A DNA stretch of 64,000 nt from Arcobacter roscoffensis. GTDB taxonomy: Bacteria; Campylobacterota; Campylobacteria; Campylobacterales; Arcobacteraceae. Positions within the stretch are counted from its first letter, which is position 1; every line of letters starts with the position of its first letter. Both the position numbers and the translations under genes were made by a program. Under the pieces are notes generated by a model. It made no database searches and was not told where the DNA came from. It was given only the letters and a program-made list of their open reading frames with translations. The stretch spans positions 1 through 64,000 of the forward strand of contig NZ_CP100595.1 of assembly GCF_024267655.1 (NCBI RefSeq), given 5' to 3'. Shown one piece after another: positions 10,105 to 28,164 of this stretch.

Positions 10105-10134
10105 AAAAAAAAAGAGTACTTTAAAAAAGTACTC
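10105..10134 (-). terminator. Intrinsic terminator of the SRP RNA gene
   Basis: On the minus strand GAGTACTTT and AAAGTACTC (10134-10126, 10122-10114) pair as a 9-bp stem, followed by nine T residues (10113-10105). The stem base shares three bases with the end of the SRP RNA helix. Confidence 0.9.
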
Positions 10135-10234
10135 TTCTCCAGATACCCAAACACACCACTAAGAGAGGTGCCTTGCTATGTTCCCATCCTGGGGCGTTAT
10201 CTCAACATAATGATTGTAAGGGTCTAAAGAAGAG
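10132..10234 (-). ncRNA. ffs: Signal recognition particle RNA (4.5S-type)
   Basis: Small bacterial SRP RNA of about 103 nt that binds Ffh and targets nascent membrane proteins. On the minus strand the conserved domain IV is visible at 10191-10174: CAGG, ATG, the GGAA tetraloop, CAT, AGCA. The ends close as a long helix: CTCTTCT pairs with AGAAGAG, TTAGA with TCTGG, CCC with GGG, and GAGA...GCC with GGC...TCTC. A strong terminator follows. Exact ends are estimated from pairing. Confidence 0.9.
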
Positions 10235-16643: not shown

Positions 16644-17675
16644 ATGGATAGAAAAACAATATATAACCCACAATCAAATGAAAATCTAACAGATAGAAGA
16701 ATATTTGGGGGAAACCCTGATGGTATGATCAACTTTACAAAGATGAAATACCAGTGGGCATTGAACTTATGGGATACTATGGAAGCAAATACTTGGTTTC
16801 CTAAAGAAGTTCAAATGACAGGTGATGCAAAAGATTATAAATATCTAACAGCACCTGAAAAAAGAATGTATGATTTAGTTTTATCACAACTAATCTTCAT
16901 GGATTCATTACAAACAAACAATTTAATGGATAATATGAATCCATATATCACAGCTCCTGAAGTAAATGCATGTTTATCAAGACAAGCATATGAAGAGGCA
17001 AATCACTCTAAATCATACGCTGTTATGGTAGAGTCTATTTCTGATAACACAGATGCTATTTATGATATGTGGAAAACAGATACAAAATTAAGAGAGAAAA
17101 ACAACTATATCGCAGATGTATATAAAAGCTTAACAGCTGGTGATGAAAGTGATATTACTGATGAGAAAATTTTACTTGCTATGTTTGCTAACCAGATCTT
17201 AGAAGGTTTATACTTCTATGCAGGATTTGCAGCAATGTATGCACTAGGAAAATCAGGAAAAATGCTTGGTTCTTCTCAAATGATTAGATTTATTCAAAGA
17301 GATGAAGTAACACACTTACTTTTATTCCAAAATATGATTAACTCTGTAAGAAAAGAAAGACCTGATTTATTTACACCTGAATTAGAGCAAACTGTAAGAG
17401 GTATGTTTAGAAAGGCTGTAGAGCTTGAAGCTTCATGGGGTTCATATATCACGCAAGGACAGATTTTAGGGTTCACAGACGCTATTATCACTCAATATAT
17501 CCAATACCTAGCAGATAGGAGACTAGAAGCAGTAGGGTATAAACCAGAATACAACGTAAAACACCCTATTCCGTGGGTAGATGGTTATGCGTCATTTAAT
17601 GACCAAAGAACCAACTTCTTTGAGGGGAATGTTGTAAACTATTCGAAAGGTTCGATAGACTTCGACGATTTTTAA
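16644..17675 (+). CDS. nrdB: Ribonucleoside-diphosphate reductase, beta subunit
   Basis: Di-metal radical-generating subunit of class I ribonucleotide reductase, partner of the upstream NrdA. 343 aa with metal ligands visible in [11 protein letters not shown] (Glu and His near 118-121) and [10 protein letters not shown] (Glu and His near 219-222). The C-terminal tail ends in GSIDFDDF, the usual NrdA-docking type of acidic/aromatic end. Start follows AGAGGAAA. Its TAA stop lies inside the left outer arm of a nested inverted repeat. Confidence 0.95.
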
Positions 17676-17817
17676 TAGGTCTTTTTCTCAAAGAGAGTCT
17701 AACGACTTGACCTAATCTCTGCGTTGGAGCAGTTTTCTTACTCAGTCACTTACTGACTGTAAGCTCCTTCGCAATAAAACTGCTCCGCTTTGACCTTGAC
17801 TAAAATACCTATTAAAA
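17670..17817. repeat. Nested 148-bp imperfect palindrome after nrdB
   Basis: Three concentric inverted pairs are visible. Outer: TTTTAATAGGT (17670-17680) with ACCTATTAAAA (17807-17817). Middle: GGAGCAGTTTT (17726-17736) with AAAACTGCTCC (17776-17786). Inner: CAGTCA (17743-17748) with TGACTG (17754-17759), flanked by CTTA/TAAG. The centre is richer in G+C than its surroundings. It could act as a terminator, a small mobile repeat (MITE/REP-like) or a structured RNA; the type is undecided. Confidence 0.7.
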
Positions 17818-17828
17818 GGAGTCATTTT

Positions 17829-18340
17829 ATGTTTGATTTTTCTATTCTAAATGTATTAAATAGATTGGGTAAAATTCCATTTTTTATTTTTTTAGCTCTA
17901 TCTTTATTAACTACAATTTTACTTTTTCATCAAATACTTTTTTAAATCAGTTAGGTTTATTAGATATTAGCGATAATTATAAGTCTTATTTAGGTATTAC
18001 TTTTTTATTATCATCTATAATTGTTGTAATTAAAAGTATTGATTATTTATTTGTCTCAATTATTAAAGAATATATTGATGATTATAAAAGTCTAAAAAAT
18101 ATAAAACAGTTATTGGAAAATTGCTCTGCAGATGAAAAAGAGTATTTGAAAAAATATATAGAAGAGGATAAATCTACATTTTACTTCCCTATATCTGATG
18201 GAATAGCAAATGGTTTAAAGTTAAAAGGTATTTTATTTGTATCTTCGAATATTGGAACACATGGAGCTACTTTTCCTTTTAATATTCAACCTCATGTAAA
18301 GAAGACTTTGTTAAATTATCCTAATATTATAAAAGCTTAA
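17829..18340 (+). pseudogene. SieB-like superinfection exclusion protein, frameshifted
   Basis: Two reading frames together spell one SieB-family membrane protein. ATG 17829 (ribosome site AAAGGAG) reads a hydrophobic N-terminus for about 31 codons and then hits TAA at 17943-17945. From about 17924 the -1 frame continues without a stop to 18340: SSNTFLNQLGLLDISDNY, a second hydrophobic segment near 18000-18055, then TFYFPISDGIANGLKLKGI and FPFNIQPHV, the conserved SieB C-terminus. The shift lies near ACTTTTTC (17921-17928). Known SieB blocks superinfecting phage. A mutation or homopolymer sequencing error are both possible. Confidence 0.7.
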
Positions 18341-18389
18341 TATCTTACTAATCCAGACTTTGTGTGAAGTCCTATCTTTAGTATTTTGA

Positions 18390-18480
18390 TTGTTTTTTTA
18401 ATAAAAAAAGAATATAAATTTGAATTAACAGCTTAAATATAGAAACAGTATCAGGGGAGTGATTAGTTCCCCCTTTCGTT
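18390..18480 (+). ncRNA. Candidate small RNA, left unit of a convergent pair
   Basis: Promoter TTGTTT (18390-18395), 17-bp spacer, TATAAA (18413-18418). The predicted transcript carries CTTAAATA (18432-18439), TATCAGG (18449-18455) and AGTGATTA (18458-18465). The same three blocks occur in the same order in the minus-strand unit at 18638-18671. A short GGGGA/TCCCC hairpin (18454-18472) followed by CTTTCGTT could end it. Expression is not shown; the call rests on promoter shape and paralogy to the right-hand unit. Confidence 0.4.
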
Positions 18481-18541
18481 AATATGCTCTAATTGCGAAA
18501 ATTAGAAATATTAACAGTAATACTGTTAACTTATAATACAT
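18479..18541 (-). CDS. Tiny hydrophobic peptide (20 aa), candidate type I toxin-like
   Basis: ATG at 18541-18539, stop TAA at 18481-18479, with AAAAGGAC five to six bases upstream as a good ribosome site. After MYYK the peptide is almost entirely hydrophobic (LTVLLLIFLIFAI) and ends RAY, so it would span the membrane. The coding DNA contains a perfect 19-bp palindrome at 18511-18529. Size, composition and the RNA-like promoters on both sides resemble type I toxin loci. No homologue is recognised, so the peptide may not be real. Confidence 0.4.
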   Translation of the reverse strand: MYYKLTVLLLIFLIFAIRAY

Positions 18542-18586
18542 GCTTGTCCTTTTATTTGCACTCCCACCCATCACTACCCACAAAGC

Positions 18587-18673
18587 AAAAAAAAAGGCAA
18601 GAGGTTAACCTCTTGCCTTCAGTGCTATTTTTTCAGGTAATCACTCCTGATAGAATAAGCATGTATTTAAGTT
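18587..18673 (-). ncRNA. Candidate small RNA with consensus promoter and terminator
   Basis: On the minus strand a perfect sigma-70 promoter is seen: TTGACA (18708-18703), exactly 17 bp, TATAAT (18685-18680). Transcription from about 18673 would meet a perfect 26-bp palindrome (18619-18594) followed by a run of T (18595-18587), giving an RNA of about 85 nt. It contains CTTAAATA, TATCAGG and AGTGATTA, shared with the plus-strand unit at 18432-18465. Read-through would enter the 20-aa peptide ORF. Function unknown. Confidence 0.6.
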
Positions 18674-18808
18674 AGAATAATTATAGTAAAAATTAATAAG
18701 TTTGTCAATACATAATAAAAAAATTATTAATATAATAAACCAAACATTCAAACAAAATTCTATATAATCAATCCATATAAATACAAACAAAATTACTTAG
18801 GAGAGAGT

Positions 18809-18952
18809 TTGAAAAATATATTTATAATAGTTTTGATTGTTGTTTCGATGGCTTATATGGTAAATATTTTAGTTGATAAATACAATAATATCATAGAGCA
18901 AGAACAACAGCAAAAACAAAAGGTTTTACCTCAACAGCCAGTACAAAAGTAG
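18809..18952 (+). CDS. Small single-pass membrane protein (47 aa)
   Basis: TTG start at 18809 after the strong ribosome site TAGGAGAGAG. Codons 2-22 encode a hydrophobic segment (KNIFIIVLIVVSMAYMVNIL) followed by a Gln-rich tail (EQEQQQKQK, PQQPVQ). A hairpin lies just past the stop. Ribosome site, signal-anchor layout and terminator support a real gene. No family is recognised. Confidence 0.55.
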   Translation: MKNIFIIVLIVVSMAYMVNILVDKYNNIIEQEQQQKQKVLPQQPVQK

Positions 18953-18953
18953 T

Positions 18954-18982
18954 AAAGAAGAAAAACTTCTGTTTTCTTCTTT
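18954..18982. terminator. Bidirectional terminator hairpin
   Basis: AAAGAAGAAAA (18954-18964), loop ACTTCTG, TTTTCTTCTTT (18972-18982): an 11-bp stem between the 47-aa ORF and the convergent DsrE-like gene, with T-rich flanks in both directions. Confidence 0.75.
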
Positions 18983-19319
18983 ATATGCTTATGATATTAT
19001 CTCCTGATTGTATCCAATCAGTTAGAAGTTTTCCCGTGTGAAAAACATCTATATTACAAGCCACTAGGCTATCTTTTACTCCTAGATTTTCGCTACATTT
19101 TTGACAAGCTACAATTTTTACACCATCAGCTACCATCTCTTTTACTTTTTCTTGGATTTCTTTATCTTCATTTATTAGCTCTTGTGAGGCTCCCCATACA
19201 AGAATAGTTACATCTTCAATCCAGCCTTGTTTTTTTGCGTTGTGTGCATAAAGACACACCATATTTAGTGATGTTTCTTTATTGTTTGTAGTCCATAGTA
19301 TTTTTGCTTCTGATTGCAC
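18981..19319 (-). CDS. DsrE-family protein
   Basis: 112-aa cytoplasmic protein read from a GTG start. The pattern AKILWTTNNKETSLNMVCLYAHNAKKQGW at the N-terminus and VKIVACQKCSENLGV near residues 68-82 fit the DsrE/DsrF-like sulfur-relay fold, with candidate reactive cysteines in CQKC. Last gene of a three-gene minus-strand set after a dienelactone hydrolase and a cytochrome. The biochemical role is unknown. Confidence 0.75.
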   Translation of the reverse strand: MQSEAKILWTTNNKETSLNMVCLYAHNAKKQGWIEDVTILVWGASQELINEDKEIQEKVKEMVADGVKIVACQKCSENLGVKDSLVACNIDVFHTGKLLTDWIQSGDNIISI

Positions 19320-19328
19320 TTATCTCTC

Positions 19329-20057
19329 CTATTTTAAAGTTTCTTGTAAAACTTCTGTAAATCTATTCCATGACTTTTTATCTGCTTCTTCATGGTATCT
19401 TTTACTTCCAAATACTGTAAAAGCATGAGGAGCACCGCTGTATGTAATCATTTCATGTTTTAAGCCAGTTTGTTCAAGTTCAACTGCAAGGTTTGCAAAC
19501 TCTTGCATACTCACAGCCTTGTCTGCTGTTCCATGAAATACTACAACTTTACCTTTTGTATTTTTATAGTCTTGCCCCTTTGGAGTAGAAAGCCCTCCAT
19601 GGAAAGGTACATAAGCCTTTAGCCCTGCACCACTTCTAGCAAGTTCTAAAATAGCTGCACCACCAAAACAGTATCCTGTACCTAAGGCATTTGCAGTATT
19701 TGCACCTTGTTTTTTAGCCACTTCTAGTCCTGTAAAAAGTCTTTTTCTCATTTCTTCTCTATTTGTATATAAAGATTTAGTTAAAGCTTTTTTATCTTTT
19801 GTTTCTGTGGGTCTAATACCTTTTCCATATAAATCCACAGCAAAAGCTGCATAACCAAGCTTATTTAGCATTTCAACTCTTTTGATTTCATAGTCAGTAA
19901 CTCCATCCCAATCATGAACCATATAAACTAAAGGAGCATTTTTAGCAGCTGAACTGTAGTAACCTTCATACTCTTTACCATCAATCTCATAAGTAACATA
20001 GCCATTAGCAAAAGCTAAACTTGAAAGAACTGTAAGTGTTGTAAAATTTTTTTTCAT
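19329..20057 (-). CDS. Dienelactone hydrolase family protein, exported
   Basis: Alpha/beta hydrolase of 242 aa with a signal-like N-terminus ending near VLSSLAFANG. The nucleophile cysteine is seen in GTGYCFGGAAI near residue 128, the acid in HGTADKAV near 176, and the histidine in PHAFTVFGS near 208, giving the Cys-Asp-His triad of dienelactone hydrolases. Natural substrate unknown. Ribosome site AAGGAAAAG. Ten bases separate it from both neighbours, so an operon with the cytochrome and DsrE genes is likely. Confidence 0.83.
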   Translation of the reverse strand: MKKNFTTLTVLSSLAFANGYVTYEIDGKEYEGYYSSAAKNAPLVYMVHDWDGVTDYEIKRVEMLNKLGYAAFAVDLYGKGIRPTETKDKKALTKSLYTNREEMRKRLFTGLEVAKKQGANTANALGTGYCFGGAAILELARSGAGLKAYVPFHGGLSTPKGQDYKNTKGKVVVFHGTADKAVSMQEFANLAVELEQTGLKHEMITYSGAPHAFTVFGSKRYHEEADKKSWNRFTEVLQETLK

Positions 20058-28135: not shown

Positions 28136-28164
28136 ATTATATATAAAATAGAATTATTTGTCAA
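28136..28164 (-). promoter_or_regulatory. Sigma-70 promoter of the transglycosylase gene
   Basis: Minus strand: TTGACA (28164-28159), 17-bp spacer, TATAAT (28141-28136), 38 bases before the ATG. Both hexamers match the consensus exactly. Confidence 0.75.

Follow-up and report, generated by a model that had tools for sequence, protein, structure and literature searches.

A candidate one-promoter, type I-like toxin-antitoxin module in Arcobacter roscoffensis and related bacteria

A perfect promoter, a strong terminator-like palindrome and a tiny hydrophobic open reading frame (ORF) lie close together in the interval 18390-18708 of a 64,000-nucleotide (nt) stretch of the Arcobacter roscoffensis genome (contig NZ_CP100595.1, positions 1 to 64,000; hereafter the window), and raise the question of how such parts may work together. 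They had been taken, in a first-pass annotation, for two convergent, paralogous RNA units flanking the ORF, possibly a type I toxin-antitoxin locus. The module is instead a single minus-strand transcription unit of roughly 270 bases, from 18708 to ~18440. Judged by its sequence, it is probably a type I-like toxin-antitoxin module that is wired from one promoter in the manner of type III systems: the terminated leader would be a trans-acting antitoxin, and the putative toxin mRNA would come from rare read-through. The features of the locus are the following.

18680-18708, minus: sigma-70 type promoter TTGACA-17-TATAAT, 12/12 match to consensus; predicted transcription start near 18673.
18587-18673, minus: predicted terminated leader RNA of ~87 nt, the proposed antitoxin small RNA; start set by promoter geometry, end by the terminator.
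18650-18673, minus: P1a, leader segment complementary to the Shine-Dalgarno (SD) and start region; duplex with P1b of -22.9 kcal/mol.
18633-18650, minus: leader hairpin HP1, stem TCAGG/CCTGA, loop AGTGATTA; the loop co-varies with the complementary loop of the 3' hairpin.
18620-18626, minus: P4a, pre-terminator segment, partner of P4b (co-variation z -13.3, 36 loci).
18587-18619, minus: intrinsic terminator, 12-13 bp stem and nine U, from inverted repeat and terminator scan.
18559-18581, minus: conserved G-rich spacer GTGGGTAGTGATGGGTGGGAGTG, lacking a promoter-like -10 box, from alignment and -10 search.
18557-18563, minus: P4b, pre-SD segment, co-varying with P4a.
18530-18553, minus: P1b, with SD (AAAAGGA), start codon and first codons, from duplex and co-variation with P1a.
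18479-18541, minus: 20-codon ORF MYYKLTVLLLIFLIFAIRAY, proposed membrane toxin, from length conservation and coding selection (pN/pS).
18521-18527, minus: ORF side of the 5'-3' long-distance pairing, AACAGTA (covariation helix 1; z -11.2).
18454-18472, minus: 3' hairpin HP3 GGGGAACTAATCACTCCCC, with a YUNR U-turn loop complementary to the HP1 loop (covariation helix 4).
18444-18450, minus: 3' side of the long-distance pairing, TACTGTT, co-varying with the ORF side.

Three of these parts had been recognised correctly at first pass. The minus-strand promoter, at 18708-18680, matches the consensus in full; the palindrome followed by nine T is a 13-bp perfect inverted repeat (18594-18619, 26 nt), and the strongest terminator-like site in 2 kb; the 20-residue ORF, spanning 18541-18479, is preceded by the ribosome site AAAAGG. 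Perfect TTGACA/TATAAT pairs spaced by 16-18 bases are expected 0.16 times in the window, and two were found. The second one (28136-28164, minus strand, spacing 17) lies upstream of an ORF beginning MNLKIILFVSLLISNIFA, likely an exported protein.

Relatives aligning over the whole interval were found by DNA search, and include a further copy from this genome (G000:C1:1999086-1999351) as well as an element on the Aliarcobacter cibarius plasmid pACIB. Aligned in mRNA sense, they share a common order of promoter, leader, HP1, terminator, G-rich spacer, SD, ORF, HP3 and distal 3' segment; in the alignment, conservation stops after the 3' hairpin and this short distal pairing segment. Two covariance models were built solely from the region between the SD and the 3' end, leader excluded. 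A search with these models recovered the module across the Arcobacteraceae, with matches at E <=0.01 in 30/104 genomes and 12/20 genera, the weakest of which were not all checked by eye. Named records with the module include Arcobacter caeni and Aliarcobacter butzleri, and three further families of the order (f16, f4, f20) host it as well. Since the models lack the leader, promoter and terminator upstream of the matches are an independent confirmation. All 44 parsed loci feature promoter (with a TATAAT-like box preceding the leader), leader hairpin, strong terminator, G-rich spacer, SD, 20 codons and 3' hairpin; promoter, terminator and peptide, on whose conservation in relatives the first-pass annotation had made its proposal depend, are thus all kept. 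Weak matches L172-L174, in which the module architecture is absent, were set aside. One locus (L102:2726-2840, genome G449) is an orphan ORF with its 3' hairpin, in which promoter, leader and terminator are absent. Both L102 and L105 were excluded from the statistics, for which 36 non-redundant loci (pairing) and 32 sequences (column-based covariation count) were used.

The module has no match in Rfam at gathering score, and only chance-level matches (E 0.4-1); no relatives were found among phage records, nor by pattern in viral contigs. At the sequence level, it is well established that the copies make up a new RNA/peptide family. The bare motif may already be among the unnamed Arcobacter-only motifs reported in PMC6429828.

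The ORF is coding and under purifying selection. The frame measures exactly 20 codons to the stop in 44/44 parsed loci, and 20-22 codons in ten further, more distant loci. Conservation with synonymous changes, a check proposed at first pass, is seen in the ratio of non-synonymous to synonymous changes (pN/pS), which is 0.42 for the whole ORF and drops to 0.26 over codons 10-20; the same alignments read in shifted frames give 1.04 and 1.52. Positions 5-16 are hydrophobic in 98-100% of the peptides, positions 4 and 18 are mostly K/R, and position 20 is Y in 38/44. Starts are ATG (23), TTG (14), GTG (4) and others (3). Peptide size, layout and sequence recall the Ibs peptides of Escherichia coli (IbsC, 19 residues). 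Alignment scores exceed those of shuffles, which do not keep the layout, by a mean z of 2.6-2.7 for IbsC and IbsA, and 1.2 for IbsB; the best alignment is that of IbsC with the L126 peptide.

The pairings of the leader carry the argument further. The blocks CTTAAATA, TATCAGG and AGTGATTA are present in order on both strands, as noticed at first pass, but do not denote two paralogous RNA genes: their inversion reflects complementarity of the leader RNA to the same-strand downstream mRNA, with which the blocks co-vary. P1a and P1b are seen as an inverted repeat (18535-18550/18652-18667, 88%). Duplex energies of cognate and swapped partners were compared across the 36 loci. For P1 (leader with SD/start), cognate duplexes average -19.5 vs -8.6 kcal/mol for swapped ones (z -18.8; 0/20000 permutations), and the cognate partner is the best of 36 in 30/36 loci. 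P4 (pre-terminator with pre-SD segment) gave z -13.3, ORF codons with the distal 3' segment z -11.2, HP1 with the 3' tail z -5.4, and the HP1 loop with the HP3 loop alone z 11. Controls, in which the same leaders were paired with other segments, ranged from z -1.3 to z +1.4. Two candidate pairings of the G-rich element were discarded, one with the 3' hairpin (not significant, z -1.3), the other with HP1 (weak, z -2.2).

The column-based count agrees with 92.9% standard pairs, and 95 double-change cells vs 29.6 in shuffles. In the long-distance helix 1, 96% of the cells are paired, and both sides changed in 5/6 pairs. In ten loci outside the statistics the cognate P1 partner was best in 10/10, and P4 and the long-distance pairing were also repeated. 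Specificity of the leader for the SD was observed among copies within one genome in nearly all cases. The HP3 loop carries the YUNR U-turn motif in 41/44 loci, vs 18.7 expected. The leader RNA has the anatomy of an antisense RNA, featuring a free 5' tail complementary to the SD/start region, a loop that matches the target's U-turn loop, and a terminator. The kind of system named at first pass, type I toxin-antitoxin, is well supported, because the peptide is under purifying selection, SD and start codon are paired, U-turn loops may kiss, and copies are dispersed, also in mobile contexts. The anatomy then proposed, a convergent paralogous RNA unit and an antisense promoter internal to the ORF, is not.

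Does the leader act on its own transcript, on others, or both? In the fold predicted for the full-length RNA, P1 and P4 both form in cis as nested helices, and predicted folds of eight loci show a lowered accessibility of SD and AUG in most, L125 being unchanged. Co-evolution alone does not separate cis from trans. The element might be an attenuated gene for a toxin or small membrane protein controlled in cis only, the leader being a self-inhibitory 5' domain, the terminator just lowering expression, and the terminated RNA a by-product; nested folds are in keeping with this, as is locus-specific co-variation, which cis folding alone would produce. A strong terminator is, however, needless for cis closure, yet kept in 44/44 parsed loci, and a U-turn motif in the target loop is typical of intermolecular contact. 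Genome G067 adds a natural experiment of sorts. Two copies found 1 kb apart (L134:2881-2998 and L134:3918-4035) have nearly identical bodies and different leaders: the leader of copy A mismatches its own SD/start (-6.7), that of copy B matches both copies (-19.3). Gene conversion has apparently left copy A with a non-matching leader. Copy A lacks P1 in cis, yet is matched by the leader of copy B. Conserved terminator, U-turn motif and G067 pair make us lean to trans; they are suggestive, not proof, and a cis-only gene is unlikely, though it deserves attention.

Some data weigh against a toxin-antitoxin module with a trans-acting leader. All the pairings could also act in cis alone, inside the read-through RNA. 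No Pfam or NCBIfam family matches the peptide, whose likeness to Ibs is partly due to the shared layout. Some start codons are non-standard (ACG, ATA, TTA), and several copies adjoin housekeeping genes such as nrdB; for both reasons, some copies may be inactive.

In the mechanism that we propose, RNA polymerase would start near 18673 on the minus strand and mostly halt at the terminator, making an abundant RNA of ~87 nt; occasional read-through would give the mRNA of a hydrophobic, probably membrane-acting peptide of 20 residues. The loop of the short RNA would first touch the U-turn loop of the 3' hairpin of the mRNA, and its 5' tail would next pair across SD and start codon, leading to a block of translation and probably to decay by RNase III. 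In uncleaved read-through RNA the leader would fold back and shut the SD in cis, while the ORF pairs with the 3' end; by this double closure, the primary transcript should be silent. Toxin would be expected only from RNA freed of the leader, once the unstable short RNA is gone, as after loss of the locus or a stop of transcription.

How might the ORF be expected to be reached by the polymerase? A separate toxin promoter between terminator and SD was looked for and discarded, as even a -10 box with 5/6 matches occurs in just 3/36 loci. The lack of promoter-like boxes in most loci and the G-rich spacer make read-through the simplest route to ORF expression. Terminators of the family have a mean hairpin energy of -15.5 kcal/mol and a mean U-run of 8.5. 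Antitermination was also considered and rejected, because neither leader nor HP1 co-varies with the terminator arms. Strong terminators, and no co-variation of an antiterminator kind, would predict that leader RNA outnumbers mRNA by a large and constant factor. The same missing co-variation speaks against a further reading, quite improbable as a whole, of the element as a regulated attenuator, or a riboswitch-like leader, of a useful small membrane peptide rather than of a toxin. The serial arrangement of leader, terminator and ORF does resemble an attenuator, and the G-rich element is conserved; leaders, however, differ from locus to locus where an aptamer would be conserved, copies lie at dispersed and in part mobile sites, and the peptide is IbsC-like.

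The G-rich spacer (GGGTAGTG..GGGTGGGAG at 18559-18581 and in relatives) is strongly conserved between terminator and SD; whether it could be a standby site, a G-quadruplex or a protein site may be asked. Small alternative hairpins (TTGCT..AGCAA, TTGCC..GGCAA) follow the T-run in some subgroups.

The model put forward at first pass, with a convergent plus-strand paralogous RNA, an antisense RNA starting within the ORF in the manner of AapA/IsoA, or both, drew on the inverted block repeats and on a plus-strand TATAAT at 18532-18537. The TATAAT exists, but is not conserved as an antisense promoter: the extended antisense -10 box TGNTAYAAT occurs in 0/44 loci, and antisense -10 boxes of other forms are no commoner than expected by chance, those with at least 5/6 matches being found in 61% of the ORF regions vs 75% of shuffles. 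The plus-strand unit had been credited with its own promoter, and a scan of 17500-19500 gave no plus-strand promoter-like site; conservation ends, moreover, at the 3' pairing segment. What lends the model some substance is a sister group in f13, another family of the order (L165-L171 and L182-L196, in G543, G497 and G368), which encodes 19-residue hydrophobic peptides in a similar layout, and in which TGNTAYAAT marks one fixed antisense position in 14/15 ORFs. For the window locus, the model is very improbable. Sister elements form tandem clusters (~10 copies in G543) and have a conserved leader TCTAGGGAAGTT...AACTTCTCTAGG; no leader terminator was seen in the loci inspected. Their control looks like that of AapA/IsoA, so that the two groups of related peptides may each have gained an RNA antidote of a different kind.

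Copies of the module are scattered over many unrelated sites. Phage integrase genes directly adjoin L121, L126 and L111; other neighbours encode a NikA-like/ribbon-helix-helix mobilization protein, Fic (on a plasmid), a HEPN protein and an Mrr nuclease. The window copy resides between nrdB and other genes, and copies near nrdB were found also in G034 and G063. Neighbours of both sorts indicate that mobile and settled copies exist. In G068, a 4.2-kb segment with module and phage integrase occurs twice at 100% identity (L121 and L122), a recent duplication of a mobile segment. A 3.7-kb segment with module and Fic gene is shared, at 98.8% identity, by L055 (plasmid pACIB) and L129 (a 2.3-Mb contig of G064). 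In the window, a SieB-like gene (superinfection exclusion, PF14163, E 2.9e-15; 17831-18340, plus strand) follows nrdB and adjoins the module; it is disrupted by a frameshift or stop near 17944. The bacterial small signal recognition particle RNA (RF00169, 45 bits) maps at 10133-10230 on the minus strand.

In the type I systems described, the antitoxin has a gene of its own, which usually lies opposite the toxin gene or diverges from it. On balance, though with some reserve, we take the module for an architecture absent from the sources searched: the antitoxin would be the prematurely terminated leader of the toxin's own mRNA, pairing both as a part of the read-through mRNA, in cis, and as free RNA, in trans, with one promoter and one terminator fixing the antidote:toxin ratio. 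If true, the family unites base-pairing control, as in type I, with the single-promoter terminator wiring of type III, in a compact circuit for that ratio, and an antitoxin can arise merely by premature termination of the toxin transcript. A candidate family of RNA and small protein is added for Arcobacteraceae and relatives, for which no type I system was found described in the literature searched, Arcobacter included; its many natural variants suit direct tests of pairing specificity and trans action.

In wiring, the closest known systems are of type III (ToxIN, AbiQ, and AbiF/RCd22 of C. difficile), in which a single promoter drives an upstream RNA, the RNA:toxin ratio depends on a Rho-independent terminator, and toxin mRNA arises by read-through (PMC8167048, PMC12373285). 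At the sequence level, the module likewise features a single promoter, an upstream RNA, and an intrinsic terminator before the ORF. In contrast, type III RNAs bind the toxin protein, which is of nuclease type, and are usually repeated, whereas the module RNA is complementary to the toxin mRNA, the product is a hydrophobic peptide of 20 residues, and no tandem repeats were seen in the module leaders listed.

In pairing, the module recalls par_pAD1 (Fst/RNA II), in which a U-turn drives the first kissing contact and SD/start sequestration follows (PMC7472228), the same order being predicted here. U-turn loops quicken contacts of sense and antisense RNAs also in hok/Sok and pIP501 (PMC6562991). 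Two convergent promoters serve par_pAD1, where the RNAs are complementary because repeats and a shared terminator are transcribed from both strands; the module antitoxin would be the same-strand, same-promoter leader of the toxin transcript, and the peptides differ in length (33 vs 20 residues). A closed primary transcript is the general rule for type I toxins (PMC6733600, PMC11228461). In AapA/IsoA of Helicobacter pylori it is silenced by 5'-3' long-distance pairing (PMC6733600). The module, found in the same phylum, shares with AapA/IsoA this kind of pairing, a small hydrophobic peptide and multiple copies, but its long-distance pairing engages ORF codons, not the SD itself; IsoA is made as a cis-antisense RNA on the opposite strand, and AapA measures ~30 residues. 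Similarly, SibC is encoded opposite ibsC, whereas the module leader lies on the same strand as the ORF.
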